A stretch of DNA of 64,000 nt from Cordylochernes scorpioides (taxonomy: Eukaryota; Arthropoda; Arachnida; Pseudoscorpiones; Chernetidae), in NCBI GenBank assembly GCA_030710605.1, contig CP092863.1:107804099-107868098 (forward strand), read 5' to 3'. Shown piece after piece: positions 4,130 through 61,630 of the stretch. How positions within the stretch are numbered: the first letter of the stretch is position 1; each line of letters opens with the position of its first letter. The position numbers and the translations under genes are program-made. Below the pieces are notes generated by a model that did no database searches, was not told the DNA's origin, and saw only the letters and a program-made list of their open reading frames with translations.

Positions 4130-5105
4130 GGGATGATGATATTCATGTATCAAAAAAGGCACCTCTCCCTTTAATTATATATCAGAACGATGCACTATAC
4201 ATCAGCATAGTAAAAAACCTTACTAGTGATGATAAAGGATAAGTCACAACACCAGTTTCGGTAAATTCAGACAAATACACACACACACAAGCCTTTTTAT
4301 TGGGGCATCCAGCCCTATACATGATTCCCCTCTACAGGATTTAGGAAAGGAAGATATTTCAAAAGTAAAAACTAGAATACAAGAAGTAACAAGGAAAAAG
4401 AAAAGAGAGAAGAAAGAAAAAACAAACAAAAAGAAATATAACCATATATACAAAAAATAAACATACAGAGCAAAAGGAACCATACATGATTAAATATTTA
4501 AATTAAAGTACCAATGTTTAGAATATGTCAAGGTTAGGATATCATTGAGAGGGCTAGTGTGGAATCAGCCGCATTCAATCTTCGTTTTCTTCCTCCAAGC
4601 AAACCACGACATTCGGCGAATCCATTAATTCAGACAAATACAATATACAGGTTGAATTTTTGTCTGAATTTGACAAAACTGGTTTTGAGGATCATTCATT
4701 ACATCAATTGTTATTTCTTTTTGCTAGGTTTATGCACAATGCATTGTTCTGATGCATATTTAAAGGGAGAGGTGCCTTTTTTGGTACATGAATATCATCC
4801 TCCCTCAACTTTATGTTGTAATCTTGTCTTAAAAATCGGCCCTTTCCACTTCACCAGCTCAAACATCTGTTTGGTAAATTTGACCGATTCCATAAACCCT
4901 CTCGTAGGATGTTATGGAATCGAAGCCGCCCCTGTATTGATGAGGGCCAAAGCATGAAACCATGGTATACAGGTTGTTGGCTGTTGTCTGAATTTTCCAA
5001 AACTGGTGTTGTGGAACATTCTTTATCATCACTATTAAAGTTTTAACTAGTATAATGTACAGTGCCATCGTTTTTATGCATAATTAAAGGGAGAGGTGTC
5101 TCTTT
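4130..5105. repeat. FB-B2 foldback cluster
   Basis: Outer arms carry AAAGGCACCTCTCCC at the left and GGGAGAGGTGCC or GGGAGAGGTGTC further right. The interior repeats CCAAAACTGGTGTTGTGG. It appears to be two or more partial copies in opposite orientation. A decayed hammerhead lies at 4931-4973. Confidence 0.6.
4931..4973 (+). ncRNA. decayed hammerhead, FB-B2 type
   Basis: Stem I arms CCTGTA and TACAGG still pair perfectly and GAAACCATGGTA is intact. The core reads TTGATGA (first C lost) and stem II has mismatches. Likely inactive, but it shows the ancestral layout. Confidence 0.5.
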
Positions 5106-5179
5106 TAGTTAAATGTATACTTTAAAATATAAGCGTTTATCCATAGTTTTCTTAAGTACTATCACTAAATTTCCACCCT

Positions 5180-5419: not shown

Positions 5420-5570
5420 AAAATATAGTAAGAATCGTCCAATACAATATTAGAGCTCTAAAAAGGCTTTCTTCTAGATTATATTAGCGAAACCGTTAAG
5501 AGGGTTTACCACTGACGAGCCAAGCTCTCCCAATATATTTTCATCGCAGAAAGTAAAGTAGAAGGTTTAT
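5420..5570 (+). repeat. FB-A repeat
   Basis: Contains AGCGAAACCGTTAAGAGGG, TTTACCACTGACGAGCCAAG and TCATCGCAGAAAGTAAAGTA, the FB-A core in a diverged copy. Confidence 0.7.
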
Positions 5571-9659: not shown

Positions 9660-9925
9660 GATTTTAAATAAAATAAAACGTTTATATATTATATATACCT
9701 CTTTACAGCCTACTCCAGTACAGCCTACACCACGCTGACGAACACCAACAGCCCAAAACGCGTTCGTGGATGGATTTTCTCGATTTATCAAGAAATTGGG
9801 TTGGCCAAATATCAGGGAACAGATTAAATCAATGAATAGTTGATTTCTCTTCCACCAGATGGCGCTCTGTCTTCTGAAAAGCACATGTGCTCCTGGTCAG
9901 GATATGCCTTTTTTATTTTTAATAT
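9660..9925 (+). repeat. FB-C repeat with decayed hammerhead
   Basis: Ribozyme region 9727-9770: CCACG, CTGACGA, a mismatched stem II, then AAAACGCGTT where GAAACGCGTT is expected, and CGTGGA. The first G of GAAA is lost, so it should be inactive. The flank with AGATGGCGCTCTG and GCACATGTGCTCCTGGTC is typical of the family. Confidence 0.65.
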
Positions 9926-10109: not shown

Positions 10110-10560
10110 GCCATCTGTTATCAAACTTCAAAACTATTATAGACGCGTATGATTCTTTTTTAAATAAACAATTTCTACTACCCTTACTGCAATGGAAAAA
10201 TTAATAGGAGGGCCTGGCTCATCAGTGGTGAACCTTCCCAGCGGTTTCGCCAGTTTAATCTACCATACCGCTCTTATATTGAATTTGATGATTGATGATT
10301 ATATGTATTTTTGCTGTCCTCAAAGCTTATGTCCATATTTCGTTCAAAATATAATTTCCAAGAGTCTAACATCAGTATCACTATAAAAGGAAGATCGAAA
10401 AATGCAATATAACAGCGGTATGGTAGATTAAACTGGCGAAACCGCTGGGAGAGTTCACCACTGATGAGCCAGGCCCTCCCATTAATTTTTTTCATTGCAG
10501 TAAGGACAGTAAAAATTGTTAAATTTTAAAAAGAACCATACGCGTCTATAATAGTTTCGA
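10110..10560. repeat. FB-A foldback, two inverted arms
   Basis: Left arm on minus (GAACCTTCCCAGCGGTTTCG near 10220) and right arm on plus (GGCGAAACCGCTGGGAGAG near 10434), separated by about 160 bp. ACGCGTATGATTCTTTTT and its complement mark both outer edges. Confidence 0.8.
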
Positions 10561-11394
10561 ATTTTAATATATAAATATTAAATATAATATATAAAAAATA
10601 GATTTTAAACATAAAAAAATAGATAAGTTATTATGTCAAGATAGAGCAAGCTAATTATTCGTTATATAATATTTTAAAGATGAATTTAAGATGTAGATAT
10701 TTGTATAGAAAATATAAAAGGTTTTATTTTGGTATTTAATAAATAAAATTAGATATAAATTAAAACAAAAATCCCAGCGGGGACTCTCGGCTGTTACACG
10801 TCATATTCTGGGTATAAAAAAAAGGAATAAGCGAAGAGAGAAGTTTATAGAAAAGAGAAAAGACAGAACCATGACAATAAATTTCTAATAGTCATATAAA
10901 ATCCAAGTTTAATAAAGGAAAACATTTTTCTATCTTCACTCTTAATGAGAGATGATAATGTTTTAATAATCTTTTTTAATTTTTTAGTTTTTAAAGCTTA
11001 TAATAATGACAATTTAATGTAAAATGGATAATTAAAATATATGATATCATATTAATAATAGTAATCTAAAATATATCCTATTTATAAATATAGCCAATCA
11101 AATACAATTATCAAAGAGTGTATTGAGAGCAAAATAAATATACATTTTATATCCTATATAAATACCTCATTTATTTCAATTTAAAACGCTATGTTCCCCT
11201 AGGGACACTTGTGCAATCATACATGTCGGTATAATTGTTATAATAATAGAAACAAATTTATATTTGCGGAAGAGCGATTTGAGAATATTTTGCAATTTAC
11301 GGAAGAGCAATGTTCTCAAAGCATATTTATGCATATTTATTTGATCTTGTATAAAATGAGTGGATCACATACCCACGTGATTTAGTTTAAATCA

Positions 11395-13737: not shown

Positions 13738-14260
13738 GTATATATACGCTCATGGGAAAACTTAAGGAAGTTGTACCTTTTAGCATGTATATCGGGATTT
13801 AGACAATAACTCTGAAAGATACACTCATGGACAAAACTCAAGGAAGTTGTACCTTTCAGCATGTATATCGAGTTTCAAACAATAACTCTGAAAGATACAC
13901 TCATGGACAAAACTCAAGGAAGTTGTACCTTTTAGCATGTATTTTGGGATTCAGACAATAACTCTTAAAGATACACTCATGGACAAAACTTAAGGAGGTT
14001 GTACCTTTAATCACGTATATCGGGATTCAGACAATAACTCTGAAAGATACACTTATGGACAAAACTTAAAGAAGTTGTACCTTTTAACATGAATATCAGG
14101 ATTCAGACAATAACTCTGAAAGATATTACAGTGACCTTAATTGAAGACATACGAGATAACCAAGTATGAATAAAATTGTCTCCGCCTCCTTAAAAAAAAA
14201 TAATAAATGAAGAGGACCAACAACATCAAAGACCTTCCAATTTCATAAGTATTGTCAATG
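13738..14260 (+). mobile_element. Tc1-type MITE with five 76-bp units
   Basis: Five tandem units each beginning near ACACTCATGGACAAAACTT and containing GAAGTTGTACCTTT, ATATCGGGATT and CAATAACTCTGAAAGA. A shared tail follows (CAGTGACCTTAATTGAAGAC, an A-run, GACATCAAAGAC-type sequence), ending near ATGAGTATA, a weak inverted copy of the start. No transposase is present. Confidence 0.8.
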
Positions 14261-14996: not shown

Positions 14997-15277
14997 TTTA
15001 TAGATAAAAATATCTATGAAAATATTTGTATGGTAAAATTTAAGATGACAGAGATTTGTGTTTAATATTTCATAAATAGAGAGGACCGCGACAAGACCAA
15101 ACTATGACCCTTCCTAAACAAGGCCAAATACGTTTCTCACAGGTTTTTCGTGGAAAAAGATTTCGATGTACCCCTAATAACCAACTAATGTAAATTTTAC
15201 TTAAAGTCTCAATAAAGGTCGTTTTTTTAGGATATAAAATATAAGATAAATATATTCATGAGTATAGTTATAGTTGG

Positions 15278-15550
15278 ATGTTTTGCCGGAAGAGAATATT
15301 AATATATGAAAATAAAGTTAACCTCTCTCGTCAAAATAGACGCTAAAACTGAGCACCAACTATATTAACTGTTTCCGCAACTGGTGGTTATTTAGTGGAA
15401 ACTTGGTGTTGTGGCTTTGTCACCGACCTGAGTCTGCTATTTTGCAGAAATGGTCAATAGATGGCACTAAGTCTTGACGTCTATTTTGACGGGAGAGGTG
15501 ATCTTTATATATTTATATATCAATATCCTCCCGGCAAAATTTCCATCATA
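15278..15550. repeat. FB-B foldback without ribozyme
   Basis: Outer arms TTTTGCCGGAAGAG and CTCCCGGCAAAATTTCC. Inner arms GTCAAAATAGACGCTAAAAC and its complement GACGTCTATTTTGACGGG. The centre keeps TTGGTGTTGTGGCTTTGTC but the hammerhead segment is deleted. Confidence 0.75.
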
Positions 15551-15784
15551 TTTTGGCATAATTTTGACCCAGCCACTCTAACAGCTAAATATCTATTTGG
15601 AGGATTGTGAATATTCCATTAGAACCCTTCAATTTTTTTTTTAATGTCAACTATGTACAAAATACTTTAACCATATACTTGTTTATAAATTAATAAAAAC
15701 AGTTCCACTCCATCTATATATAGGAAATTACAAAATTAAGACATGAATGTCTCTTTTACACACTAAAACACACTTCTAATGTCC

Positions 15785-17060: not shown

Positions 17061-17118
17061 TTGTTTTTTGGGAAATTCGACTGATTTCATATCAAATAAT
17101 GCTAATAAATCGAAACGG

Positions 17119-17164
17119 TTTTTGTACTGATGAAGGCCACAATCCCGAAACCATGGTATACAGG
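17119..17164 (+). ncRNA. hammerhead, FB-B2 type, weak stem II
   Basis: Core CTGATGA is intact and GAAACCATGGTA follows. Stem I arms TTTGTA and TACAGG pair with G-U wobbles. Stem II (AGGCCACAATCCC) has only about two pairs. Downstream is the family segment with AAAACTGGTGTTGTGGC. Confidence 0.5.
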
Positions 17165-17449
17165 TTGTAGGCTATTGTCTGAATTTATCAAAACTGGTGT
17201 TGTGGCTTATTCTTTATCATCACCATTACGTTACCGTTGTTTTAATATGTGTGTTTGAAAAAAATAAAAAATAGAAAAGGTTAGTAACTTTTTAATACAA
17301 TATAAAGGATTGCGGTGTATGATTATAAAGTAATACTTAAAGCCTCCCCGCATAAGTTTCTTTTTTTGTGAAAATCAATATTAATTTCAAAGAGAAATAT
17401 GTACTATTTCTAACTTTTTGGATGACGTATGAAAAGGTTGAATATATGA

Positions 17450-17629: not shown

Positions 17630-17790
17630 ACGTTCAGCTATATATATATATGTTGTAGCTTTGTCACCGACCTGAGTCCGCTAGTTTATGGCGACAGTCA
17701 ATAGATGACATCTAGTTTTGACGTCTATTTTGAAGGGAGAGGTGCCCTATGTTTTTATAGATCAATTTCCTCACCGAACTATTTCCATAT
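17630..17790. repeat. FB-B right-arm fragment
   Basis: GTTGTAGCTTTGTCACCGAC, AATAGATGACATCTAGTTTT and GACGTCTATTTTGAAGGGAG: half of an FB-B element without the ribozyme. Confidence 0.65.
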
Positions 17791-18049
17791 ATGTATATAT
17801 GAAATATGAATATATATAAAAATATATATATTTTTTGAAATATATCTTGATCAAACTATATCAAAGCTATTAGCTATAATTTGCACAATGGGGAACTGTT
17901 TTAAATACTATTTTATGACACATATATTAAACGAAAAAATTTGCATAAACTATTATTTTACATATTATTTTACTTTTTTGTTGTTTAATCCTAAATTTTT
18001 CCTATATAATATTTACATATTTTATAATACAATATAATGCGGCTTATGA

Positions 18050-18960
18050 TTGTAGATTGACATTTGAAATTATCCCGCATTGTGTTTCTTTTGAATGAAA
18101 AATCTAAATTCATTTTGAGGAGAAATAACGACTATTTCCAACCTTAGGGATGAAGTATGAAAGGATTAATTGGGAAGAGTAATGAGATAAATGGAAAAGT
18201 AAAAGTATCCAGGGATGGGAATCGAACCCACAGTGTTCCACTTACCGGGCAGATGCCATGTCCACTAGACTACCCTGGACATATTTCTCAGTTCGTAAAT
18301 ATTATATAAAGTAATTTATAATACAATATAATGCGGCTTGTGATTGTAGATTAACATTTGAATATTATCCCGCATGAGTTTCTTTTGAATGTAAAATCGA
18401 AATTTTTATTTTAAGGAGAAACAACGACTATTTCCAACCTTAGGAACATGCCTAGTGGACATGACATCTGCCCGGTAAGCGGAACACTATGGGTTCGATT
18501 CCCATCCCTGAATACTTTTATTTTTTCGTTTATTATTACTCTTCACAATTCATCCTTTCATACTTCATCCCTAAGGTTAGAAATAATCGTTGTTTTTACT
18601 TAAAATAAATATTTCGATTTTTCATTCAAAAGAAACACATGCGGGATAATTTCAAATGTCAATCTACAATCATAAGCCACATTATATTGTGTGTATTATA
18701 AATTACTTTATGTATTATTTACGAACGGAAAAATATGTCCAGGGTAGCCTTGTGGACATGGCATCTGCGCGGTAAGCGGAACACTATGGGTTCGATTCCC
18801 ATCCATGGATCCATGGACACTTTTATTTTTCCGTTTATCATTACTCTTCACAATTCATCCTTTCATACTTCATTGTTTCTCCTTGAAATAAAAATTTCGA
18901 TTTTTCATTCAAAAGAAACACATGACGGGATAATTTCAAATGTCAATATACATTTACATA
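18050..18960. mobile_element. cluster of three tRNA SINEs (family 1), some inverted
   Basis: tRNA-like heads lie at about 18215-18280 (minus), 18440-18515 (plus) and 18740-18815 (plus). Tails with ATAATGCGGCTTATGATTG or its complement point outward, so the first two copies form an inverted pair with a near-perfect long stem. Confidence 0.7.
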
Positions 18961-21718: not shown

Positions 21719-21725
<7 letters not shown>

Positions 21726-21812
21726 TGGCGTCTGGTTTTGACGTCTATTTTGACGAGAGAGGCGACCCTTGTCTCTTTAGATCAATATCCTCCTGGCAAA
21801 ATTTCCATCTAT
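21719..21812. repeat. FB-B terminal arm
   Basis: AGATGGCGTCTGGTTTTGAC, GTCTATTTTGACGAGAGAGG and TCCTGGCAAAATTTCCATC: one arm only, next to an (AT)n run. Confidence 0.7.
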
Positions 21813-21819
21813 ATATATA

Positions 21820-22316
21820 TCGTAATTTAAACAATGTGATATGTAAGTAACAAAGTATAACGTCTTTTCTAGTCGTCTCAAAGTGACACCAGTTTGCCAC
21901 CGGACCCCAGGGGAGGGGAGGATGACCCACATAAGACTAACCAATGAGCATCAACACCCGGGGGATCCAGAGAGGGACAAAAAGGGGCGTTTTGTCCGGA
22001 TGTAGGAGTTAGGTTACAGTGGATATTTCTGACAGGCCCGCTCAGTACTAGGTCCGTGGTCATCTCACGGCGGCCCTCATGGCCGCCGTTTTGACTCCTC
22101 TCTGCTCTCGCGACTTCATGCAGGACGCCGAGCTTTCCTCAGTTAATCCTCAACTTTCCCCTGGTTCTGGTGCCACGTGAGACGTACTAGGAGAGCGTCT
22201 TTTGATCCCAAACTTTGTCCTTACTGTCCCGTGCGGACTTCCCACTCTGCACGCCTTGCCACTCAACCCCGACTGCTTCCAACTCACTTGCTGTCTTACC
22301 CAGGTTTACGACATGT
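21820..22316 (+). repeat. GC-richer repeat with TCGTAA ends, copy 1
   Basis: Runs from TATCGTAATTTAAACAATG to GGTTTACGACATG; the ends are weak inverted repeats. The interior (GGCGGCCCTCATGGCCGCCG, GAGACGTACTAGGAGAGC) is collinear with 45485-45937, which is in the same orientation. A 72-residue frame is shared but is disturbed by single-base indels between copies, so it is not a conserved protein. Confidence 0.65.
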
Positions 22317-22720: not shown

Positions 22721-22864
22721 ATGAACAATAGAAATCTATGTACATTTATCTATTTTTTATATAAATAATGTTTTTTTATTAACATTATCTTTTGTCTCAT
22801 CTATATTGTGTCTCTGTTGCAATAAAATAAAGTTGAGAGAGACTGGCTCATTAATAGTAATATA

Positions 22865-23292
22865 TATATATCTAAAGAGACAAAGGTCGCCTCTCCTGTC
22901 AAAATAGACGTCAAAACTAGACGCCATCTATTGACCGTCGCCGCAAACTAGCGGTCTCGGGTCGGTAACAAAGCCACAACACCAGCTTTGGCAAACTGAG
23001 AAGCGTCCACCTAGAGACCATGGTTTCGGGCTAATGGCCCTCGTCAGTCTAGGGCGGACTTTATTCCATGAGGTCCACACGGGATCTAATGGAATCTTCA
23101 CAATCTACCAAAGAGGTGTTCAGCTGGCAAAGTGGCGGGGCCAAATCTATGGCTGAAATATAGTCACTGACCCGAGGGCGCTAGTTTGCGGTGACGGTCA
23201 ATAGATGGCGTCTAGTTTTGACGTTTATTTTGACGGGAGAGGCTACCCTTGTCTCTTTAGATCAATATTCTCCTAGCAAAATTTCCATCTAT
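22865..23292 (-). repeat. complete FB-B foldback with hammerhead in its loop
   Basis: Left arm (from TCTAAAGAGACAAAGGTCGC through GTCAAAATAGACGTC and CGCCATCTATTGACCGTC) pairs with the right arm ending GTCTCTTTAGATCAATATTC over about 110 bases. Between the arms lies an asymmetric core of about 175 bp holding the ribozyme at 23010-23053. A minus transcript would fold as a long stem with a self-cleaving loop. Confidence 0.8.
23010..23053 (-). ncRNA. hammerhead ribozyme, FB-B type, fully canonical
   Basis: Minus-strand order: stem I arm CCTAGA; core CTGACGA; stem II GGGC-CATTA-GCCC; GAAA; stem III ACC-AT-GGT (counting the last A of GAAA); cleavage site GTC; stem I arm TCTAGG. All invariant bases match, stem I pairs 6 of 6, stem II 4 of 4 with G-C next to the core. 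Stem III ACCATGGT is an 8-base palindrome, so a dimer with a full stem III is likely. The same 44 bases occur at 38545-38588. Confidence 0.85.
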
Positions 23293-23299
23293 ATATATA

Positions 23300-23625
23300 T
23301 TAAAAATAAAGAAGGCATCTCCTGACCACGAGCACGTGTGCTTTTTAGATGGCAGAGCGCCATCTAGTGGAGCAAAAATAATTTAAACGTTTATTTAACT
23401 TGCTCCCTGATATTTGGCCAACCCAATTTCTTGATAAATCAAGAAAAGATATCCACGAACGCGTTTCGCGCTGAAGAAATTGGGTTGGTCAAATATCACG
23501 GAGCAAGCTAAATAAACGTTTAGTTTATTTTTGCTCCACTAGATGGCGCTCTGCCATCTAAAAAGCACATGTGCTCCTGGTCAGGAAATGCCTTCTTTAT
23601 TTTTAATATCAACACCTGACCCACT
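23300..23625. repeat. FB-C foldback, palindromic, core mostly lost
   Basis: Both arms contain AGATGGCAGAGCGCCATC, AACTTGCTCCCTGATATT or complements. The centre (about 23450-23475) keeps GAACGCGTTTCGCGC on plus, i.e. GCGAAACGCGTTC on minus, then diverges, so only half a hammerhead remains. Confidence 0.65.
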
Positions 23626-26228: not shown

Positions 26229-26476
26229 GTAAATTAAGAAAAAACATCTCCTTATGGTGAACTGAAAGTTTCTGATGGCTTGCGCCATCTATCGGAATAA
26301 ATATCAACTAATCGTTAATTTTTAATTATTCCAGAATTGGTCTAATACCCAAAATTAGGTATTTGGCCAATTTTGGAATAACTAAAAATCAACAATTGAT
26401 ATTTATTCCGATAGATGGCGCAAGCTATCAGCAACTTTTAGTTACACGATAAGGAGATGCCATTTTTCCTTAGTTT
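26229..26476. repeat. foldback with AGATGGCGC boxes
   Basis: Left arm ATCTCCTTATGGTGAACTG ... GCGCCATCTATCGGAATAAA, right arm TTTATTCCGATAGATGGCGC ... TAAGGAGATGCC. Arms of about 100 bp around a short centre. It is a different family from FB-A to FB-E but carries the same AGATGGCGC word. Confidence 0.75.
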
Positions 26477-28600: not shown

Positions 28601-28949
28601 TTATTAACCAATTTTATAATTTATAATTTAAATTGCCATCTATCGGTAAAATTTGTAGCAATTAAATTTACTGGCAATGTGTTTCTTTTTACTAATATTG
28701 AAACGAGTTAAAACATCGGCTAGAAATTATGTAAATCTGTTGTGATTGTAAATAGCTAAAATTATGTAAATAATTATCCTTTTTAAAAAAATATATATAT
28801 AGTTATGGCTCGAGAGAGTCGTGGTATGTAAGACTTGAGGATCAGTAGCGTCTGGTTCTCATCGTTTGTTAACTTCCAAGTAAATTAAACAAAAGTTTAT
28901 CCTAACCAACGGCTGGCCTGATTTCCAACACTACAATATCATCAAATAT

Positions 28950-29305
28950 TTTTTCTACAGACTTTACTGCAATGATAAAAGTTATTGAATGAGATGGCTT
29001 GGCTCATCAATGGTGAATCCTCTCAGCGGTTTCACCAAATTAATTTCAAGACCGCTCTACTATTGTATTGGTTTGGAATATACACTGCATTTTCTATGGA
29101 AGGCAGCTTAGGAGTTTCTAGTGAACCTATGCTAAGCTGCCTTCCATAGAAAATACAGGGTATATCCCAAACCAATCCAATACAATAGTAGAGCGGTCTG
29201 GAGATTAATTTGGCGAAACCGCTGAGAGGATTCACCATTGATGAGCCAAGCCATCTCATTCAACAACTTTTATCATTGCAGTAAGGTCTGTAGAAAAAAT
29301 ATTTG
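28950..29305. repeat. FB-A foldback, nearly perfect palindrome
   Basis: Arms of about 150 bp: TACTGCAATGATAAAAG ... AAGACCGCTCTACTATTG and the complement. The centre at 29095-29130 also pairs (AGGCAGCTTAGGAG / CTAAGCTGCCTTCC). This copy has the longest arms relative to length of the family. Confidence 0.8.
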
Positions 29306-29439
29306 ATGATATATACATACAAATATATATATATATACAAAGCTTTATTAAGACCACTGGTCTTATATAGAATCACCAAAGGAAGAAATAATAGATGGAG
29401 TTCCTATACTCCAGGCAGCGCAGTACCCAATGATATATA

Positions 29440-29780
29440 TATATATATATACTCATTTCTTGGTTTCTCAAGAAGCCACAGGGACCAAAATTCTTTTTGG
29501 TCGCAGTGGTACAGTCTACTCCACGCTGACGAGTGCCAACAGTGCGAAACGCGTTCGTGGATGGCTTTTCTTGATTTATCAAGAAATTGGGTTGGCCAAA
29601 TATCAGGGAACAAACAAAATCAATGAATAGTTGATTTCTGTTCCACCAGATGGCGCTCTGCCTTCTGTAAAGCACATGTGCTCCTGGTCAGGATATGCCT
29701 TTTTTATTTTTAATATCAACACCTGACATTTTTAATTTTTATTTTTGTCTATTGTTTTTTCATATATATATATATATAAA
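29440..29780 (+). repeat. FB-C element with intact hammerhead
   Basis: Order on plus: CTCATTTCTTGGTTTCTC, ribozyme, GGCTTTTCTTGATTTATC, TTGGGTTGGCCAAATATC, AGATGGCGCTCTGCC, GCACATGTGCTCCTGGTC, ATATCAACACCTGAC. The start and middle are weakly self-complementary. Frames across it recur in all copies and are not genes. Confidence 0.75.
29520..29561 (+). ncRNA. hammerhead ribozyme, FB-C type
   Basis: TCCACG, CTGACGA, stem II GTGC-CAACA-GTGC (two wobble pairs), GAAA, stem III ACGCGT (palindrome), cleavage base T, CGTGGA. Stem I pairs 6 of 6 and all core bases are canonical. Confidence 0.8.
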
Positions 29781-30204: not shown

Positions 30205-30840
30205 TACACTGGTAGAAAAAAAAACTTAAGGAAGTTGTACCTTTTACCATGTATATCGGGATTCAGACAATAACTCGGAGAGATACACTCATGGACAAAA
30301 CTTAAGGAAGTTGTACCTTTTACCATGTATATCGGGATTCAGTCAATAATTCGGAAAGATACACTCATGGACAAAACTTAAGAAAGTTGTACCTTTTACC
30401 ATGGATATCGGGATTCAGACAATAACTCGGAGAGATACACTCATGGACAAAACTTAAGGAAGTTGTACCTTTTACCATGTATATCGGGATTCAGACAATA
30501 ACTCTGAAAGATACACTCATGGATAAAACTTAAGGAAGTTGTACCTTTTAGCATGTATATTGGGATTGAGACAATAACTCTGAAAGATACACTCATGGAC
30601 AAAACATAAGGAAGTTGTACCTTTTAGCATATATATTGGGATTGAGACAATAACTCTGAAAGATACACTCAAGGACAGGAAGTTGTACCTTTCAGCATGT
30701 ATACTTGAATTCAGACTCTGAAAGATACAGTGACCTTTATTGAATACACACGATATAACCAAGTGTGAACATCATCTGTCTCCTTCAAATAAACAGACGA
30801 CCGACGACATATTAGACTTTCCACTTCATTTAGTCTCGTG
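30205..30840 (+). mobile_element. Tc1-type MITE with about seven 76-bp units
   Basis: Units start near 30287, 30363, 30437, 30513, 30588 and 30664, so spacing is about 76. The last unit is shortened. The tail (CAGTGACCTTTATTGAATAC, GACGACCGACGACAT) follows and ends CTTTCCACTTC. Confidence 0.85.
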
Positions 30841-33410: not shown

Positions 33411-33574
33411 GCTTCTATATCTTTAGTATGCTAATGAAAGTATTGAGTTTTTATGGATTTAAGCTGATAGCTGCTAGTATATATTGATACCGTTTGAAAT
33501 AAATATGTGGAGAAAACTTTGCTTACTAGCAAATTATTCATTACATCTTGGTTTTGTGTGTTTAAAATATCATT

Positions 33575-33825
33575 AATTTATAAAGATAAAGGTCACCTCT
33601 CACGTCAAAATAGACGCCAAAGCTAGACGCCATTTAGACTGAAGAGGGCCATCAGCCCGAAACCATGGTCATTGGTGGACACTTCTCAGTTTACCAAAGC
33701 TGGTGTTGTGGCTTTGTCACCGACCTGAGGCTGCTAGTTTGCGGCGACGGTCAATAGATGGCGTCTAGTTTTGATGTCTATTTTGACGGGAAAGTCAACC
33801 TTTATCTTATATATATATTATATTA
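33575..33825 (+). repeat. FB-B element with hammerhead
   Basis: Left arm GTCAAAATAGACGCCAAAG, right arm GATGTCTATTTTGACGGG; the core on plus carries the ribozyme at 33634-33680, then AAAGCTGGTGTTGTGGC. Confidence 0.75.
33634..33680 (+). ncRNA. hammerhead, FB-B type, stem I lost
   Basis: CTGAAGA (position 7 may be any base), GGGC-CATCA-GCCC, GAAACCATGGTC are intact. The upstream arm TTTAGA no longer pairs with ATTGG. The catalytic core is complete but the fold is probably unstable. Confidence 0.6.
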
Positions 33826-33839
33826 AAAGCAAAATTTGC

Positions 33840-33960
33840 ATATCCTGAGCGCTCACATGAGCAATTTAGATAGAAGAGCGCCATCTAGTGGAATAAAAAT
33901 AAACTAAACGTTGATTTAGCTTGTTTTTAATATCAATACCTGACCATATTTATATTTTCC
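33840..33960 (+). repeat. FB-C fragment
   Basis: CATATCCTGAGCGCTCACAT, GAGCGCCATCTAGTGG, ATATCAATACCTGACC; the core is deleted. Confidence 0.6.
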
Positions 33961-33974
33961 TTATTTTTTCACAT

Positions 33975-34130
33975 ATTTAACTGACGAAACCGCTGGGAGG
34001 GTTCACCACTGATGAGCCAGGCCCTCCCATTACTTTTTCCATTGCAGCAAAGGCAGTAATAATTGTTTAATTTTTAAAAGAATCATACGCGTCTATAATA
34101 GTTTCGAATTTACATATATATCCATAAATA
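33975..34130 (+). repeat. FB-A repeat
   Basis: GACGAAACCGCTGGGAGGG, CACCACTGATGAGCCAGG, CATACGCGTCTATAATAG. Confidence 0.75.
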
Positions 34131-34134
34131 TAAA

Positions 34135-34505
34135 ATAAAAGGATTTAAAAGCGCGAATGTTTCTTTTATACATAAAACGAACTTCTACTGTCCTTACTGC
34201 GATGAAAACATATATTGGGAGGGCTTGGCTCATCAGTGGTGAACCCTCCCAGCGGTTTCGCCAATTTAATCCACCATACCGCTTCTCAGAGCTCTAATAC
34301 TGTATTGGATCATTAGAGCTCTGAGAAGCGGTATGGTGGATTAAATTGGCGAAACAGCTGGGAGGGTTCACCACTGATGAGCCAAGCCCTCCCAATATAT
34401 GTTTTCATCGCAGTAAGGACAGTAGAAGTTCGTTTTATGTAAAAAAGAAACATTCGCGCTTTTAAATCCTTTTATTTTATATGTATAGATGGCGCGTTAT
34501 TGCTT
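34135..34505. repeat. FB-A foldback, high-identity arms
   Basis: Arms of about 140 bp meet at TACTGTATTGGATCATTAGAG near 34310 with very few mismatches. Outer AGATGGCGCGTTATTGC box at 34487. Probably one of the youngest copies. Confidence 0.85.
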
Positions 34506-34519: not shown

Positions 34520-34795
34520 TCCATAAATACCCATTTCTTGGTTCCTCAAGAAGCTTCTGGGACCAAAAATATTTTTGGTCGCAGTGGTACAGCCTACTCC
34601 ACGCTGACGAGCGCCAACAGAGCGAAACGCGTTCGTGGATGGCTTTTCTTGATTTATCAAGAAATTGGGTTGTCCAAATATCACGGAGCAAGTTAAATAA
34701 ACGTTTAGTTTGTTTTTGCTCCACTAGATGGCGCTCTACCATCGAAAAAGCACACGTGCTCGTGGTCAGGAGATGCCTTCTTTATTTTTATATAT
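34520..34795 (+). repeat. FB-C element with intact hammerhead
   Basis: CCCATTTCTTGGTTCCTC, ACCAAAAATATTTTTGGT (internal hairpin), ribozyme, TTGGGTTGTCCAAATATC, AGATGGCGCTCTACC, GCACACGTGCTCGTGGTC. Confidence 0.8.
34598..34639 (+). ncRNA. hammerhead ribozyme, FB-C type
   Basis: TCCACG, CTGACGA, stem II GCGC-CAACA-GAGC (one mismatch), GAAA, ACGCGT, cleavage base T, CGTGGA. Stem I pairs 6 of 6. Confidence 0.78.
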
Positions 34796-37499: not shown

Positions 37500-37700
37500 T
37501 TTATATATATGTGAAAAAATATTTAGAAGTCTGCACCATGCTGACGAGGGCAAACAGCACGAAACGCGTAGGTGGTTTACTTTTCTTTGATTTATCAAGA
37601 AATTTGGGAGGCCAAATATTTTTGGAACAAACTAAATCAATGTTTAGTTGATTTTGTTCCACTAGATGTCAGCGTTCAGGAAATGCCATTTGTATTACAT
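37500..37700 (+). repeat. FB-C element, hammerhead with weak stems
   Basis: Ribozyme region 37533-37576: CACCATG, CTGACGA, stem II GGGC-AAACA-GCAC (one mismatch), GAAACGCGTA, GGTGG. The core is intact but the first stem I pair is lost. Confidence 0.6.
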
Positions 37701-37891: not shown

Positions 37892-38373
37892 CTAGCGGAT
37901 GTGTACCCGGCTTCGCCCGGGTTTTATCCGAGTGAAAGTTTGCCTAACGAATATTATATATTATGAAGTATAATAAACAATGTTAAAGATTAGTTTTAAT
38001 TATTAATCAAGATTGTGTGTGAATATGTGAGAAAGATGTAATATCGTTGTTGTTTTCTTGGCCGACTGTTTTACATATGGTGTTATCTTAAAATTGCTTG
38101 TTTTGAATATTTTTTTAGATTGAGTTGAATGAATTGCTGAATTTTTTTTTTTGTATTTATATATAAATAAAATTAACTCTGTTGATTTTTTTTGTATTTA
38201 ATCGATAACAGCGAAGTTACGCATGTTAATGTTAGGGAAAAATATTTTGATGTTAAGCAAAACCTGCTTCATCTCGTTTTACATAAATGTTGAAAATTTG
38301 GTCGAAATTGATGCATTGTAACGAAAGTTTTTAGTGAACAACACTTATGAAATTTGAATTTTATTAATATAGA
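37892..38373 (-). mobile_element. non-autonomous Helitron, separate family
   Basis: On minus it begins TCTATATTAATAAAATTCAA after A and ends CCGGGTACACATCCGCTAG before T. Hairpin CCCGG-GCGAAG-CCGGG lies just before the end. The body is unlike the other Helitrons. No Rep/helicase. Confidence 0.8.
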
Positions 38374-38379
38374 TATATG

Positions 38380-38747
38380 TGGAAATTTTGCCGGGAGGAA
38401 ATTGATATAAAGAGACAAGGGTCGCCTCTCCCGTCAAAATAGACGTCTAAAACCAGACGCCATCTATTGACCGTCGCCGCAACTAGCGGCTTCGGGTCGG
38501 TGACAAAGCCACAACACCAGCTTTGGCAAACTCAAAAGCGTCCACCTAGAGACCATGGTTTCGGGCTAATGGCCCTCGTCAGTCTAGGGCGGACTTTATT
38601 CCATGAGATCCACAAGGGATCTAATGGAATCTTGACAATCTGCCAAAGAGATGTTTAACTGGCAAAGTGGCTGGGCCATATCTATGGGTAAAATATAGAT
38701 GGAAAAAAATATATAGACGTCTATTTTGACGGGAGAGGCGACCCATG

Positions 38748-38770
<23 letters not shown>
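38380..38770 (-). repeat. FB-B foldback with hammerhead in loop
   Basis: Left arm GGAAATTTTGCCGGGAGG, GTCAAAATAGACGTC; right arm GACGTCTATTTTGACGGG, shortened by AT/CT repeats. The core matches 22985-23160 very closely. Confidence 0.8.
38545..38588 (-). ncRNA. hammerhead ribozyme, FB-B type, fully canonical
   Basis: Identical over 44 bases to 23010-23053: CCTAGA, CTGACGA, GGGC-CATTA-GCCC, GAAACCATGGTC, TCTAGG. Conservation of every paired position, while the arms around it differ, fits selection on the RNA or recent spread. Confidence 0.85.
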
Positions 38771-38782: not shown

Positions 38783-39330
38783 TGTAAACAAAGAAGGCAT
38801 ATCCTGACCGCTTACTCAAGCATTTTTAAATGACAAAGCGCCATCTAGTGGAACAAAAATCAAATTAACGTTGAAAAATTATCATGTGAGCGCCCCGGAT
38901 ACTTTACGGTCTTTAATATCAACACCTGACTATTTTCCCTTATTTTTCATAAATACCCATTACTTGATTTCTCAAGAAGCTTCTAGGACCAAAATATATT
39001 TCGTCGTTGAGATACAGCCTTCACCACGCTGACGAGGGCCAACAGCCCGAAACGCGTATGTGGTTGACTTTTCTTGATTTGTCAAGAAATGGGTTGGCTA
39101 AATATCAGGGGACAGGCTAAATCAATGTTTAGTTGATTTCTGTTCCACCAAGTACTCCTCTCTGGAGTAACTCTCCCTGAAGAAGCAAAACTTCAGGAGA
39201 AATTGGGGAAAGTTTCAAATTTTCAATAATATTCTGTATGGACGGTTGCAATAATCACTATGAATTGCTGAGAAACAATAGCCAAATAAAACACATAATG
39301 ATTGCACTAGATTGCGCTCTGCCAACTAAA
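38780..39330 (+). repeat. FB-C copies, second one with intact hammerhead
   Basis: 38780-38945 is a coreless FB-C piece (GAGCGCCCCGGATAC, AATATCAACACCTGAC). 38945-39330 is a second copy: CCCATTACTTGATTTCTC, ribozyme, ACTTTTCTTGATTTGTC, then an insertion near 39160. Confidence 0.65.
39024..39063 (+). ncRNA. hammerhead ribozyme, FB-C type, perfect stem II
   Basis: CCACG, CTGACGA, GGGC-CAACA-GCCC (4 of 4), GAAA, ACGCGT, cleavage base A, TGTGG (one wobble in stem I). Core fully canonical. Confidence 0.82.
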
Positions 39331-39339
39331 ATGTTCATA

Positions 39340-39860
39340 TAAAATTAAAGGATTTAAAAGCACGAATGTTTCTTTTATACATAATACAAACTTCTACTGT
39401 CCTTACTGCGATGAAAAATATATATTGGGAGGGCTTGGCTCATTAGTGGTGAATCCTCTCGGCGGTTTCTCTAATTTAATCGACCAGACCGCTTCTCAGA
39501 GCTCTATTACTGTATTGGACGATTCTGCTTATATACGCAGCACTGAAGGGTGGAATCTCAGAAATGGTTTTCAAGAAAACTATGGACATAAGCTTATATG
39601 ACAATGGAATCAACCCTTCAGTGCTGCGTGTATAAGCAAAATCGTCCAATACAGTTTTAGAGCTCTGAGAAGCGGTCTGGTGGATTAAATTGGAGAAACC
39701 GCTAGGAGGGTTCACCACTGATGAGCCAAGCCCTCCCAATATATTTTTTATCGCAGTAAGGACAGTAGAAGTTTGTATTGTGTATAAAAGAAACATTCGT
39801 GTTTTTAAATCTTTTCATTATATATATATAGATGGCGCGTTATTGCTTCGTGTTTAAATG
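39340..39860. repeat. FB-A foldback
   Basis: Arms of about 200 bp around a short spacer near 39600 (GACAATGGAATCAACCC). Core segments as in 34135-34505; outer AGATGGCGCGTTATTGC box on the right. Confidence 0.8.
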
Positions 39861-40700: not shown

Positions 40701-40984
40701 CGGGGCTCAAAAATCATTCAATTTGGTTAGCAGCCCCGTAAATAAAAATTTTTTCTTATCATAATGGTGTTCTCTTGGAAATTTATGAATTAGAGTGGTA
40801 ATATACATAAATAAATATAATATCGGAAATTATATAAGGTAATATTTATAAAACCTTTAATTGAGAGTTCATATGTATTATAATCATAATTAACAACTAT
40901 ATATTATGTTAATATATAAGTTAAAATTTTTAATGAAAGACAAGTTTTCAAAGTGGCATCTCTAATCAAGAAATGGAATTACAT

Positions 40985-46599: not shown

Positions 46600-46815
46600 G
46601 AATAATTCAGTAAAATGTTTTGGAATCAGGTTACCCCTATACTGATGAAGGCTATAGCCCGAAACCATGGTTAATAGGTTGTTAGCTGTTCTCTGAGTTT
46701 TCCAAAACTGGTGTTGTGGCTCATTATTTGTCCTCGCCATTACGTTTAATACTGGGGTGATAAACAAAAAAACATTGTTTTAATGTATTTTTAAAGGGAG
46801 AGGTAACTCTTTTAA
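46600..46815 (+). repeat. FB-B2 repeat with hammerhead
   Basis: Ribozyme 46636-46678: CCTATA, CTGATGA, AGGC-TATA-GCCC, GAAACCATGG, cleavage base T, AATAGG. The core is intact, stem I pairs 5 of 6 (first pair A-A), and stem II is 3 bp plus an A-C mismatch. Then AAAACTGGTGTTGTGGC and AAAGGGAGAGGTAAC. Confidence 0.65.
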
Positions 46816-56050: not shown

Positions 56051-56250
56051 ATATATATATGAGCAATAGTTACCAATAAATTATTCGAAAAAGAAAGAAA
56101 GAAAGAAAGAATATTAAGGTAAAGTTTTCATTTTGTTTTTCGCAAGCTTTCGAGCAAAACATACAAGTTGTATTTAAGACGAGTAATCCTTTTAATATAT
56201 TGTAATACGCATAGAATCAAAAAGGATGAGTTTCTTTTATTGGAAAATCG

Positions 56251-56289
56251 ATTCGAGCTTTCGGGCGTAAGCGGGCCTTCTACAGGAAT
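56251..56289 (-). ncRNA. hammerhead-like ribozyme at PLE end (minus copy)
   Basis: On minus: ATTC, CTGTAGA, AGGC...GCCC, GAAA, AGCT (palindromic stem III counting the A), cleavage base C, GAAT. Stem I pairs 4 of 4. The core has U for A6. It lies just outside the 3' end of the PLE, where PLE hammerheads are known to sit. Confidence 0.6.
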
Positions 56290-56554
56290 AATGGAACAAT
56301 TTCAAGTAGACATGTATATACACATATATATCAGCTAATTTTTTGCATATCTAGGATTATCTATGAAGTGTTTTATTTAATTATTTAAGAAAAAATTATT
56401 GTTATGTAAATTAGTCAATTTGCTGATATTATTATATGCAAAATTGTAAAATGGTGTGGTGAAGAGAAAACTGATAATTCTATTTGAGTTTTTGGATCAG
56501 CCTATCATATGTCTCCGGGATATCTATGTGTCTATTTATACTATTATATTTTGA

Positions 56555-56891
56555 CTAGATGAATGACCCAGGCAACGCCTGGGTTTACACGATTAAATGT
56601 ATTTTACATATGGAAGATGGACGTAGTTCCCGGAGGTCACCCGCGAGGCTTTTTTGGCACTTGGCACAGCTGTGTCACCAACTCTGCCCCCGCGCGCCAG
56701 GACCACGCGCGGTGGGAACTTGAACTGGCCAACCGGCCGGCAGCCGGACGATTCCATTTTCACGGAGGGGGGGGGGGGGGGCGTGGGCAGGTAAGTCACG
56801 TGCTCGCCGGAAGCCAATGGACGCGCATTCTATCCGTGAACTTCACACAGTGAACTTCACACAGACAGAATAAGGCAATTATATAAGTAGA
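56555..56891 (-). mobile_element. Helitron inserted in the PLE (337 bp)
   Basis: On minus TCTACTTATATAATTGCC ... GGGTCATTCATCTAG, host A before and T after. Hairpin CCCAGGC-GTT-GCCTGGG, 8 bases before CTAG. GC-rich interior with a 16-base G-run. The plus PLE copy near 60950 has the uninterrupted site. Confidence 0.92.
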
Positions 56892-58920
56892 TGAAATCAG
56901 TGCTTCTAGTAATAATCTTTTGTATTTACTATTTATGTTTGTGTAATGAATATTGGGGTTTGCTAGATTGAATTCATGATCTGTGTGTCTGATATATTGC
57001 ACTATTAGGGATTTGGGGTCTTTGTTTTTAATGTTTCTTCTGTGTTCGTCTATTCTGTCTTTTATCTGTCTTCCTGTTTCACCTACATATACATTATTAC
57101 ATTGGGTGCATGGTATGGAATATACTGCTTTGCTATTGTGTAGTTTTGATATAGGAATACTGTTTCTGGTAATGGGGTTTCTTAAATGGTTTCTATACTC
57201 GGGTTGCTTTCATAATATGTTCTGATACCGTGTTTGCTTAAAATTCTGGCTATATGGGTACTACTGTGGGAATAGGGAATTATACATATTGATTTATAAA
57301 CATGAGTATTTCTTATGAGAGATGGATTATAGAAATGTCTTAATATAAAGTTTTTCGGATAACCACTAGAAGTGAGTTTGTTGATCAAAAATTGGGTTTC
57401 TGTATCTTTTGAGAGTTGGGTGGAACAAGTTGGGTGGAAAGGGTTTTTACGGTGTTGATCTTGTGACTGAGGGGGCAATAAGAGGAAAAATGTATATAAT
57501 CTGGAGTGGAGTTTGGCTTGTGGTATATTTCTGTTGTGTATTGGTTTTGTGTTTTTAGTATAAGTACATCTAGAAATGGTAAGGTCTTATTGTTTTCTGT
57601 TTCTATGGTGAAATCGATGTCATTATGTATGGACTTTAGTTGGGTAAAAATGGAATTTATTTTGTTAGAGTTGTATATACAAAAGATGTCGTCTATGTAT
57701 CTCTGCCAGATGATGATTTCTGTGGGAAACAGGTTGGTTATCGTTTTATCTATTTTTCTCATGACTATTTCTGCCAAAGGTGAAGAGAGGGGACTTCCCA
57801 TGGGGGAGCCCTTGGTTTGTTTATAAAATTGGCTATTGAAGGAGAATATATTGTATTGTAGGCTAAGCTTAATTAATGAAATAATTTTAGAAGAGGTATC
57901 TGGAGGAATATTGTTTAATGCTAAAATTTCTATTGTGTTATCTATTATTAGATGGTGTGGTAAGCTTGGGTACATATTAACTACTTCAAAAGATATCATG
58001 GTGCTGTTAGGAGAGGGGGGAGGCTGTGTATATTTTCTATAAATTTTGGTATGGATGTGATGGATGTGGTGGTAGGATTGTCTTTTAGAATGGGGATAAG
58101 GAAGTTTGCTAGAAATTTGGCTAAGGGGGCTATAGGAGACATATGATATGCTATAATAGGGCGAATAGGAATACCTGGTTTATGGGTCTTGGGTTGGCCG
58201 TAAATATAAGCGATACTTTTTATGTTTCCTAGGAACAATTTCAAGTCTTCTGCAGTAATAGTATTGCCTCTGCATAAATTCCTTAGATCTTTTGTATATT
58301 GGGCATATGATTGAGATTTTCATTGGTGGTTATAGGTTTGAATACTATGGAGTTGTTTAGAGGATTTCATTCATTTTTGATATATAATCTAGAGTGTTCA
58401 TAATAACTGTTTGGGATCCTTTATCTGCTTTTGTAATTACTATTTCTTTCTTGCTTCTTAGTGAATTGGCTATATTTTGATTATTGGGCTTAAAGATAGG
58501 CGTTCTTGAAGATTCTTTCAAAGAGGTAGTGACTAAGTTTCTGATTTTGGATTGTTCATTATGTGTTAGGGTAGATATAGCCGATTCGACTCCTGCAATG
58601 ATTTTATAAATATCTGTTTTCATGGGGAATCTATGTTTGGTCCCCTTTGATAAATAGTCAATTTCATCAGTTGAGAGATCAAAGCTGGATAAGTTGAGAA
58701 TATTAGCCTAGTTTTCAGGTGGTATGAGTTGGGTGTTGTATTTCCTAGACCAGAATTGAAGTTTCTTTTGGTGTTTCTTCTCTATGGCGGAGTTTAAGGT
58801 TTTGATGTCTTTAGTGGTGCTGATGATAAGTTGTAGCATTTCTGTTGGGGGGATTCTTTGAGATACTATACTTATTAGATCTTTTAAGGTTTTGAAATGA
58901 GTCTTATGTTTGAGTAACAT
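56892..58920 (-). pseudogene. PLE polyprotein (RT and GIY-YIG), broken, minus copy
   Basis: Pieces in order: MLLKHKTHFKTLKDL, stop after QLIPPEN (CAG to TAG), ITKADKGSQTVIM, frameshift at MNEIL, YGQPKTHKPGIPIRP, frameshift after HSLPP, RT motif A as SFEVVNMYP (catalytic Asp to Glu, codon 57985-57987), motif B GSPMGSPLSS, motif C YIDD, then a shift into the GIY-YIG part (IPCTQCNNVYVGETGR, HRRNIKNKD) which stays open past the position where the plus copy has a stop. It ends at the Helitron. Confidence 0.88.
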
Positions 58921-59042
58921 CCTTTTGTTCTAGATCTGAGTAGTTTGAATTGGGTATCTTTTATAATTGAATTTGAAAAATGGTTTTAACAGGATCTTTT
59001 ATTCTGAGGGTAGGTGGTATAAAACTGTTAACTTCACAAATC

Positions 59043-60957
59043 CTATAGAGAAGAAACACCAAAAGAAACTTCAATTCTGGTCTAGGAAATACAACACCCA
59101 ACTCATACCACCTGAAAACCAGGCTAATATTCTCAACTTATCCAGCTTTGATCTCTCAACTGATGAAATTGACTATTTATCAAAGGGGACCAAACATAGA
59201 TTCCCCATGAAAACAGATATTTATAAAATCATTGCAGGAGTCGAATCGGCTATATCTACCCTAACACATAATGAACAATCCAAAATCAGAAACTTAGTCA
59301 CTACCTCTTTGGAAGAATCTTCAAGAACGCCTATCTTTAAGCCCAATAATCAAAATATAGCCAATTCACTAAGAAGCAAGAAAGGAATAGTAATTACAAA
59401 AGCAGATAAAGGATCCCAAACAGTTATTATGAACACTCTAGATTATATATCAAAAATGAATGAAATCCTAAACAACTCCATAGTATTCAAACCTATAACC
59501 ACCAATGAAAAATCTCAATCATATGCCCAATATACAAAAGATCTAAGGAATTTATGCAGAGGCAATACTATTACTGCAGAAGACTTGAAATTGTTCCTAG
59601 GAAACATAAAAAGTATCGCTTATATTTACGGCCAACCCAAGACCCATAAACCAGGTATTCCTATTCGCCCTATTATAGCATATCATATGTCTCCTATAGC
59701 CCCCTTAGCCAAATTTCTAGCAAACTTCCTTATCCCCATTCTAAAAGACAATCCTACCACCACATCCATCACATCCATACCAAAATTTATAGAAAATATA
59801 CACAGCCTCCCCCCCTCTCCTAACAGCACCATGATATCTTTTGACGTAGTTAATATGTACCCAAGCTTACCACACCATCTAATAATAGATAACACAATAG
59901 AATTTTTAGCATTAAACAATATTCCTCCAGATACCTCTTCTAAAATTATTTCATTAATTAAGCTTAGCCTACAATACAATATATTCTCCTTCAATAGCCA
60001 ATTTTATAAACAAACCAAGGGCTCCCCCATGGGAAGTCCCCTCTCTTCATCTTTGGCAGAAATAGTCATGAGAAAAATAGATAAAACGATAACCAACCTG
60101 TTTCCCACAGAAATCATCATCTGGCAGAGATACATAGACGACATCTTTTGTATATACAACTCTAACAAAATAAATTCCATTTTTACCCAACTAAAAACTA
60201 AAGTCCATACATAATGACATAGATTTCACCATAGAAACAGAAAACAATAAGACCTTACCATTTCTAGATGTACTTATACTAAAACACAAAACCAATACAC
60301 AACAGAAATATACCACAAGCCAAACTCCACTCCAGATTATATACATTTTTCCTCTTATTGCCCCCTCAGTCACAAGATCAACACCGTAAAAACCCTTTCC
60401 ACCCAACTTGTTCCACCCAACTCTCAAAAGATACAGAAACCCAATTTTTGATCAACAAACTCACTTCTAGTGGTTATCCGAAAAACTTTATATTAAGACA
60501 TTTCTATAATCCATCTCTCATAAGAAATAATCATGTTTATAAATCAATATGTATAATTCCCTATTCCCACAGTAGTACCCATATAGCCAGAATTTTAAGC
60601 AAACACGGTATCAGAACATATTATGAAAGCAACCCGAGTATAGCAACCATTTTAAGAAACCCCATTACCAGAAACAGTATTCCTATATCAAAACTACACA
60701 ATAGCAAAGCAGTATATTCCATACCATGCACCCAATGTAATAATGTATATGTAGGTGAAACGGGAAGACAGATAAAAGACAGAATAGACGAACACAGAAG
60801 AAACATTAAAAACAAAGACCCCAAATCCCTAATAGTGTAACATATCAGACACACAGATCATGAAATCAATCTAGCAAACCCCAATATTCATTACACAAAC
60901 ATAAATAGTAAATACAAAAGATTAATACTAGAAGCATTGATATCATCAAAATATAAT
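59043..60957 (+). pseudogene. PLE polyprotein (RT and GIY-YIG), plus copy, few lesions
   Basis: Reverse transcriptase plus GIY-YIG endonuclease of a Penelope-like retroelement. Readable from about 59043 (5' truncated against the minus copy). Landmarks: KADKG (59396-59411), YGQPKTHKPGIPIRP, motif A SFDVVNMYPSLP with the catalytic Asp at 59843-59845, motif B GSPMGSPLSS, motif C YIDD (60131-60142). A 5-base insertion after QLK near 60195 shifts the frame; reading continues at HNDIDF. A shift near 60420 is shared with the minus copy. The C-terminal part has IPCTQC and VYVGETGRQIKDRIDEHRR (60721-60800), then a stop at 60838 where the minus copy has Gln, then readable sequence to LIQKLK and a stop near 61018. 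Sequence from 60958 on holds the part the Helitron split in the other copy. Confidence 0.9.
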
Positions 60958-61210
60958 AGTATAAATAGACACATATATATCCCGGAGACATATGATAGGT
61001 TGATCCAAAAACTCAAATAGAATTATCAGTTTTCTCTTCATCACACCATTTTACAATTTTGCATATAATAATATCAGCAAATTGACTAATTTACATAACA
61101 ATATTTTTTTCTTAAATAATAAAATAAAACACTTCATAGATAATCCTAGATATGCAAAAGATTAGCTGATATATATGTGTATATACATGTCTACTTGAAA
61201 TTGTTCCATT

Positions 61211-61249
61211 ATTCCTGTAGAAGGCCTGCTTACGCCCGAAAGCTCGAAT
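61211..61249 (+). ncRNA. hammerhead-like ribozyme at PLE end (plus copy)
   Basis: ATTC, CTGTAGA, AGGC...GCCC, GAAAGCTC, GAAT. Same as the minus copy except for one loop base. Both copies keep stem I and the palindromic AGCT. Confidence 0.6.
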
Positions 61250-61329
61250 CGATTTTCCAATAAAAGAAACTCATCCTTTTTGATTCTATGCGTATTAAAA
61301 TACAAGTTGTATATATACCAAAATTATAA

Positions 61330-61630
61330 CAAAATAGGCATATTGGCTGACCGCTCACATTAGCAATTTTAGATGGCAGAGCGCCTTCTAGCCGAACAAA
61401 AATCAACTAAACGTTGCTTTGAAGGGTTGAACGAAGCTATTTCTAAAGATATTTGGCCATCCCAATTTCTTGACAAATCAAGAAAAATCAACCACGTACG
61501 CGTTTCGGGATGTTGGTCCTCGTCATCTTGGTGAAGACTGTACCTTTACGACCAATAATTTGTTCTCAGAGGCCTTCTGAGAAATCAAGAAATGGGTATT
61601 TAAGGCCAAGTTTGCATAAATGCGCTTTTC
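61330..61630 (-). repeat. FB-C element with decayed hammerhead
   Basis: On minus, ribozyme region 61492-61532: CCAAG, ATGACGA (C3U4 changed to A,U), GGACCAACATCCC, GAAACGCGTA, CGTGG. The rest (CTTGATTTGTCAAGAAATTG, GGGATGGCCAAATATC) is typical. Confidence 0.6.

Follow-up and report, generated by a model that had tools for sequence, protein, structure and literature searches.

A tandem retrozyme with a type I hammerhead and head-to-head, Penelope-like insertions in Cordylochernes scorpioides

The hammerhead at 23010..23053 is carried by a foldback (22864-23289) that consists of two copies of one unit joined head to head, with their 3' ends outward. The element is a metazoan non-LTR retrozyme, with a non-coding tandem unit of ~320 nt and a type I hammerhead. 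We consider it very probable that the foldback is one insertion of this retrozyme, mobilised by a Penelope-like element (PLE) and made by priming at both ends on a template that was circular or an uncut multimer; PLE machinery is the most likely mover. Positions refer to the window, the whole stretch of 64,000 nucleotides analysed. The original prediction was of a type I hammerhead that forms part of the loop between inverted arms, and the letters, the descriptor and the mapping of the arms bore this out. The proposed kinship of the motif with PLEs, retrozymes and satellite repeats was upheld as well.

On the minus strand, from 23053 to 23010, the motif reads CCTAGA-CTGACGA-GGGC-CATTA-GCCC-GAAA-CCATGGTC-TCTAGG. 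It has the invariant core, the three stems and the open end in stem I that define a type I hammerhead, and a strict descriptor match confirmed the predicted letters and core. The cut is predicted to fall between 23016 and 23015. The strict descriptor (core plus stems I, II and III) matched four sites in the 64-kb window. Dinucleotide shuffles of the window (n = 200) gave a mean of 0.025 strict hammerheads and a maximum of 1, and a chance origin was ruled out on these counts.

The covariance check, named beforehand as one that could overturn the prediction, gave a split result. For the copy at 23010..23053, Rfam returned no hammerhead match at the gathering score, nor when searched locally with E limits of 5 and 10, and its hammerhead models matched no family A copy. 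The only Rfam signal was the family B copy at 39010..39150 (HH9, 14.8 bits), which is below the gathering score of 52. A covariance model of our own, trained on nine other copies from the A2 and B families and on no family A member, recovered the hammerhead at 23010..23053 with 55.3 bits (E = 1.5e-12); its twin at 38582 (minus) also gave E = 1.5e-12. Since the copy was found by this model despite the missing Rfam match, the Rfam silence on family A more likely reflects a subtype that is missing from its models.

Stem III of the 23010..23053 copy has only 2 bp and a palindromic CAUG loop; CAUG caps stem III in family A and CGCG in family B. In the nearest-neighbour fold, stem III is predicted to be absent, with GAC paired with GUC instead. 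Across 12 copies (11 distinct), 86% of the cells were paired in the named hammerhead structure, compared with 24–38% when the partner was slid. Covariation in the stems amounted to 22 cells altered on both sides, which was reached in 0/500 shuffles; counted as pairs changed on both sides, it was not above the shuffles (6 vs 4.5, 97/500). The covariation resides in stem I. Stem II was paired in only 75% of the cells in the same copies, and a stem II mismatch was seen by eye in 4/6 family B copies.

Table 1. Positions of the hammerheads, retrozyme copies and Penelope-like element in the window.
Feature	Position	Strand	Remarks
Type I hammerhead ribozyme, core with inner stem I	23010..23053	minus	descriptor, covariance model, letters
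Strict hammerhead descriptor matches	23047 and 38582	minus	window scan
Strict hammerhead descriptor matches	29526 and 39029	plus	window scan
Direct ~320-nt unit copy, family A	22864..23163	minus	short 3' site at 22864
Inverted copy of the same family A unit	23163..23289	plus	5'-truncated, long 3' site
Optional 30-nt tail	23260..23289	plus	short to long 3' site
Second intact family A head-to-head insertion	38367..38752	minus	core starts 38582 (-), tail at 38367 end
Third family A head-to-head insertion	33572..33841	plus	stem I altered at joint
Family A, inverted fragment + tail, direct fragment + tail	15263..15627	plus	then start of next tandem unit
Family A 3' end with tail	17651..17800	plus	5'-truncated
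Family A 3' end with tail	21721..21820	plus	5'-truncated
Older subfamily A2, partial tandem	4646..5110	plus	322-nt period; hammerhead-like core at 4937
A2 copy	17108..17232	plus	hammerhead core at 17127
A2 copy	46623..46800	plus	hammerhead core at 46642
Family B copy	29507..29730	plus	hammerhead with palindromic ACGCGT stem III
Family B copy	39010..39150	plus	hammerhead with complete stem II
Family B copy	34585..34795	plus	mismatched stem II
Family B copy	37522..37692	plus	mismatched stem II
Decayed family B copy	9716..9925	plus	
Family B copy	61328..61602	minus	decayed hammerhead at 61526
Family B head-to-head insertion	23297..23620	minus	beside 22864-23289 foldback; half hammerhead in loop
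Penelope-like element, head-to-head pair	56198..61302	plus	RT + GIY-YIG pieces
Arms of the Penelope-like element	56198-58785 and 59045-61302		56566-56881 without counterpart
13-bp target duplication of the Penelope-like element	left 56161..56173, right 61300-61312	left plus	

Two further groups of hammerhead-like words in the window were excluded by eye. In family C (3720, 12217 and 54724), one additional base flanks stem II. Its motif, at 3720 (-), 12217 (+) and 54724 (-), shows a long stem II and an ACGT stem III, and lies towards the 3' end of a repeat ~450 nt long. Another repeat is marked by words like CTGATGAGCC (e.g., at 5512 and 32191) and holds permuted hammerhead-like words with hardly any stem I.

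The genome of C. scorpioides (2.62 Gb, 24 contigs) contained 9,251 copies of the exact 32-nt hammerhead core, and the reversed control gave 0. Viral and prokaryote contigs gave 0 exact matches to the hammerhead pattern. A head-to-tail array of 3.9 units at locus L029 set the period of the unit at 320 nt; a hand count on the window letters gave 322 nt for subfamily A2. Together with 43 tandem joints, these periods agree with the tandem units of 150–450 bp, each with a type I hammerhead, that characterise retrozymes. Retrozymes also have no coding capacity and a GC content below 50%; the one unit examined had 48.8% GC and a longest stop-to-stop frame of 68 aa across two units. At L029, the units repeat without an ORF between the copies, and in the window the tail of the family A copy at 15.4 kb leads without interruption into the following unit. 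PLEs are recognised by an ORF with RT and GIY-YIG. The ~320-nt unit has no long frame and was therefore not filed as an autonomous PLE.

The foldback arms (22864-22969 and 23163-23268) match over 106 nt at 89.6%, with a loop of 193 nt; without gaps, they are 83% complementary over 129 nt. The copies at 23163-22864 (minus) and 23163-23289 (plus) are one unit in opposite directions. To see how such copies are joined across the genome, we took the 100 listed of the 9,251 core matches, all on contig 1, which formed 88 clusters. The criterion for these loci was an intact core, irrespective of arrangement, and they were split into the first 60 and a replication set of the remaining 28. The first set had 41 head-to-head, 1 tail-to-tail, 30 tandem and 5 other joints, and the replication set had 22, 1, 13 and 2, respectively (63, 2, 43 and 7 when pooled). 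A further 39 loci selected by similarity, and thus biased towards the foldback, had 37 head-to-head, 4 tail-to-tail and 22 tandem joints. Among same-family neighbours at most 400 nt apart in the window (33 hand-picked fragments, weak matches omitted), 9 were head to head, 0 tail to tail and 2 tandem. The two copies overlap or abut at 26/40 head-to-head joints. Arm lengths vary, the arms being copies of the ~320-nt unit that are 5'-truncated at scattered points. Head-to-head pairs are what insertion of the element usually produces, and the original claim of a long hairpin transcript that cuts its own loop has to be divided. The fold predicted for the minus transcript is indeed a long hairpin or rod that carries the hammerhead at the tip, but the foldback is not a loop-cutting device.

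The free 3' ends were bimodal, with two sites ~30 nt apart: among the first 60 loci, 42/107 ends fell at q290-304 and 39/107 at q325-329. Head-to-head insertions combined one short and one long end in 32 of the 33 scorable cases of this set. The exception was short–short, and no long–long pair occurred; 7/40 insertions were unscorable because an end lay outside both bins. The replication set gave one of each in 13/13 scorable insertions (5/18 unscorable), so the pooled value for the core-selected insertions is 45/46. In the similarity-selected set, it was 26/27 (2/29 unscorable). Loci with a single orientation had 8 short, 8 long and 3 other ends (n = 19), and those of the replication set 5, 1 and 1 (n = 7). 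In the window, the foldback with the 23010..23053 hammerhead obeys the one-of-each rule (short at 22864, long at 23289), as does the insertion at 38367-38752. The left end of the insertion at 33572..33841 is short, and its right end is ambiguous because a family B end adjoins. The insertion at 15.3 kb does not fit simply: its inverted end is long, and its direct copy runs through the tail and onward. A preference of the tail for the shorter arm was dropped, as it was not replicated (24 vs 8 in the first set, 6 vs 7 in the second, pooled P = 0.036).

Target duplications were sought at 41 whole head-to-head insertions, with a tolerance of 4 nt at the borders and 500 flank shuffles as a reference. 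Direct repeats of at least 5 bp flanked 17/41 insertions (shuffled mean 8.9; 17 reached in 0/500), and those of at least 7 bp flanked 6/41 (shuffled mean 2.3; 4/500). When the repeats of at least 5 bp had to contain G or C, 6/41 remained (shuffled mean 0.87; 0/500). Many of the 41 insertions have no clear flanking repeat; the excess over the shuffles supports head-to-head insertions as single events. The first 20 flanking nucleotides were AT-rich (77% and 82%, against 63% for the loci). The retrozyme therefore displays the PLE insertion signature, namely head-to-head copies, an optional ~30-nt tail, a short target duplication and an AT-rich target. At 23297, 33820 and 38779, a family A insertion of the window lies immediately next to a family B copy, at the AT-rich 3' end of the latter, as if the end of one element served the other as a target.

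Constraint on the ribozyme was assessed in 81 aligned copies (48–50 at the core) from 39 loci, a non-random sample made up of the 40 loci scored out of 3,062 candidates, minus the window's own locus. The ten non-CpG catalytic positions were substituted in 2/484 cases, as compared with 637/16,013 (4.0%) elsewhere (permutation P = 0.00025); against the non-core positions of the hammerhead block, P was 0.0015. The CpG core positions G8 and G12 were altered in 4/48 and 5/48 copies, so some copies are dead. For the whole hammerhead block, the effect at non-CpG sites was weak (2.5% vs 4.0% substituted, P = 0.015), and variants at or above 15% showed no difference (P = 1.0). Conservation of the entire block is accordingly a weak proposition, and the clear signal comes from the catalytic positions only. 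Two window copies share an identical run of 72 nt (P = 0.010). The hammerhead may be active in vivo.

The inserted copies do not start at the ribozyme cut. Only 3/163 free 5' ends of the 88 core-selected loci lay within 5 nt of the predicted position, where ~5.6 were expected; the counts were 1/107 for the 60 loci, 2/56 for the 28 loci and 3/83 for the similarity-selected set. A start at the cut was therefore rejected, and the lack of an excess implies that the templates were mostly uncut or closed circles. A single A2 copy (4646) has its start no more than 2 nt from the cut.

The window also holds a PLE, and this element shares the insertion anatomy of the retrozyme: it is arranged head to head, with a target duplication and a one-ended tail. 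The pieces of its long arms are 97–100% complementary. The sequence of its 13-bp duplication occurs just twice in the window, and on the left side only, a stretch of 29 nt, which we read as the tail, separates the left duplication copy from the shared PLE end. For the RT protein of the window, the 30 best relatives were all from C. scorpioides. In the 3' region of both arms, at about 61215-61260 and 56240-56285, we noted a degenerate stretch that resembles a hammerhead but whose core is broken (CTGTAGA ... GCCCGAAAGC). The search beside the unit (99 loci, short flanks) found no autonomous PLE with the hammerhead or the 3' region of the unit. Ten of these 99 loci match some PLE protein, with the placement judged by eye, and no best match starts before residue 92 of its protein. 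Homology of the unit DNA itself to PLE protein was not accepted (best E = 0.003 for a family B copy and 0.007 for A2).

Foldbacks are common in this DNA. If arms of 50 nt or more and loops of at most 400 nt are required, inverted repeats occupy 23 places and 11,283/64,000 bases, the PLE pair included (examples are 10119-10569, 28936-29312, 33975-34490, 39337-39825 and 53483-53689). Other repeat families also form foldbacks, such as the tRNA-Thr-like repeat at 17999-18952. An A2 foldback is split by an insertion of ~350 bp (4282-4627), flanked by a direct repeat of ~16 bp, AATTCAGACAAATACA, as judged by eye. Words resembling GCGCCATCTAGTGG, which we presume to be similar to a CTCF site, occur at 23357-23370, 23536-23549, 26282-26295 and elsewhere, at family B ends and in other foldbacks. 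A tandem repeat of ~76 bp forms dispersed arrays (40980-42267, 30221-30729, 48813-49194 and 13744-14125).

With these results in hand, we propose the following course of insertion. Tandem units would be transcribed and some of the transcripts cut by the hammerhead into single units; circles of RNA, or multimers left uncut, would arise, as the family suggests. The RT/GIY-YIG endonuclease of a PLE would then copy the retrozyme RNA. Going by the copies in the genome and by what is published on the PAc enzyme, it would cut both strands of an AT-rich target and prime a cDNA from each. The first cDNA would begin at an internal site of the RNA and the second ~30 nt further along; joining of their variable 5' ends would yield a head-to-head foldback with a short target duplication at its flanks. 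Where the arms are unequal, the hammerhead of the longer arm would come to lie in the loop, as in the 22864-23289 foldback. A stricter form of this proposal is tentative, and we incline somewhat against it: a PLE enzyme acting as an asymmetric pair would make one cDNA at each of the sites ~30 nt apart, one per cut strand, on self-cleaving circular or multimeric retrozyme RNA. If so, nearly every two-ended insertion should have one tailed and one untailed end, and retrozymes would be natural reporters of PLE integration.

Other readings were weighed. In place of a retrozyme in its own right, the unit could be a solo pLTR, with the 5' leader, the hammerhead and the start of the ORF of an autonomous PLE in this genome. 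A hammerhead followed by two downstream RT start sites is the PAc layout (PMC11167929), and solo pLTRs are known in Adineta (PMC3846280). We find this unlikely, as the L029 units stand in tandem with no ORF between them, the longest frame of the unit is 68 aa, and the short flanks of the 99 loci showed no PLE start beside the unit. Still less probable is self-priming or template switching of a single cDNA on an antisense or hairpin template, which has been discussed for head-to-head PLE copies of Adineta (PMC3846280) and could account for the 26 joints that overlap or abut. Self-copying of one cDNA should yield equal outer ends, but here a cDNA start site lies at each outer end, and the two sites differ in nearly all scorable core-selected insertions (45/46); moreover, the PAc enzyme extends both strands (PMC11167929).

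That a DNA transposase moved a simple satellite or MITE-like foldback, with the hammerhead as a passenger, deserves hardly any credence. The inverted repeats and AT-rich targets would suit it, and a mariner-type transposase frame is present in the window. However, the arms vary in length and are 5'-truncated at scattered points; the tandem units, the two 3' sites and the variable target duplications are marks of retrotransposition; and the hammerhead core positions are constrained. Two-ended priming by PLE machinery remains the reading that we prefer.

Which enzyme moves animal retrozymes is an open question in the field. Metazoan retrozymes occur as tandem units, and PLEs were proposed as their movers (Cervera and de la Pena 2020, PMC7229834) on the basis of the type I hammerheads and tandem occurrence of both and their co-existence in the genomes studied; for PLEs with hammerheads, PMC7761336 cites Cervera and de la Pena 2014 as well as Lunse 2017. 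The present insertions bear PLE marks (two internal starts, head-to-head joints and a one-ended tail) in a family of thousands of copies, and the PLE link can therefore be tested by counting and by in vitro priming. A literature search by title and abstract, with subscription papers mostly outside its range, gave no earlier report of head-to-head retrozymes, and we did not find the head-to-head, PLE-like insertion habit of a retrozyme described in the literature surveyed. A tail on one of two inverted pLTRs is already known from Adineta (PMC3846280); the one-of-each rule adds a quantitative constraint to PLE integration.

Three known systems come close. Metazoan non-LTR retrozymes likewise have a type I hammerhead and non-coding units of ~170–400 nt, in tandem and in many copies, with PLEs co-resident (PMC7229834). 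The C. scorpioides element differs in its arachnid host, in core-selected loci that are mostly head-to-head foldbacks, in its two favoured 3' sites and in its target duplications. PLEs with a pLTR share the head-to-head arrangement, the ~30-nt tail on one end, the AT-rich targets and the short target duplications (PMC3846280, PMC11167929). In the Adineta insert, inverted pLTRs occur together with a target duplication, and one end carries a 31-bp tail (PMC3846280). The PAc enzyme from Anolis cuts and extends both strands, and its two adjacent start sites are internal to the RNA (PMC11167929). PLEs also place the hammerhead upstream of the internal RT starts (PMC11167929). Unlike them, the C. 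scorpioides unit has no ORF, and its hammerhead is canonical, whereas that of PLEs is minimal. Finally, the satellite hammerheads of newt and axolotl have a stem III of 1–2 bp with a tetraloop cap, which is palindromic in one axolotl group (PMC7229834). The axolotl hammerheads with a short palindromic stem III were more active as dimers (PMC7229834). They differ from the present family in sequence and host, and the caps found in C. scorpioides are its own CAUG and CGCG.
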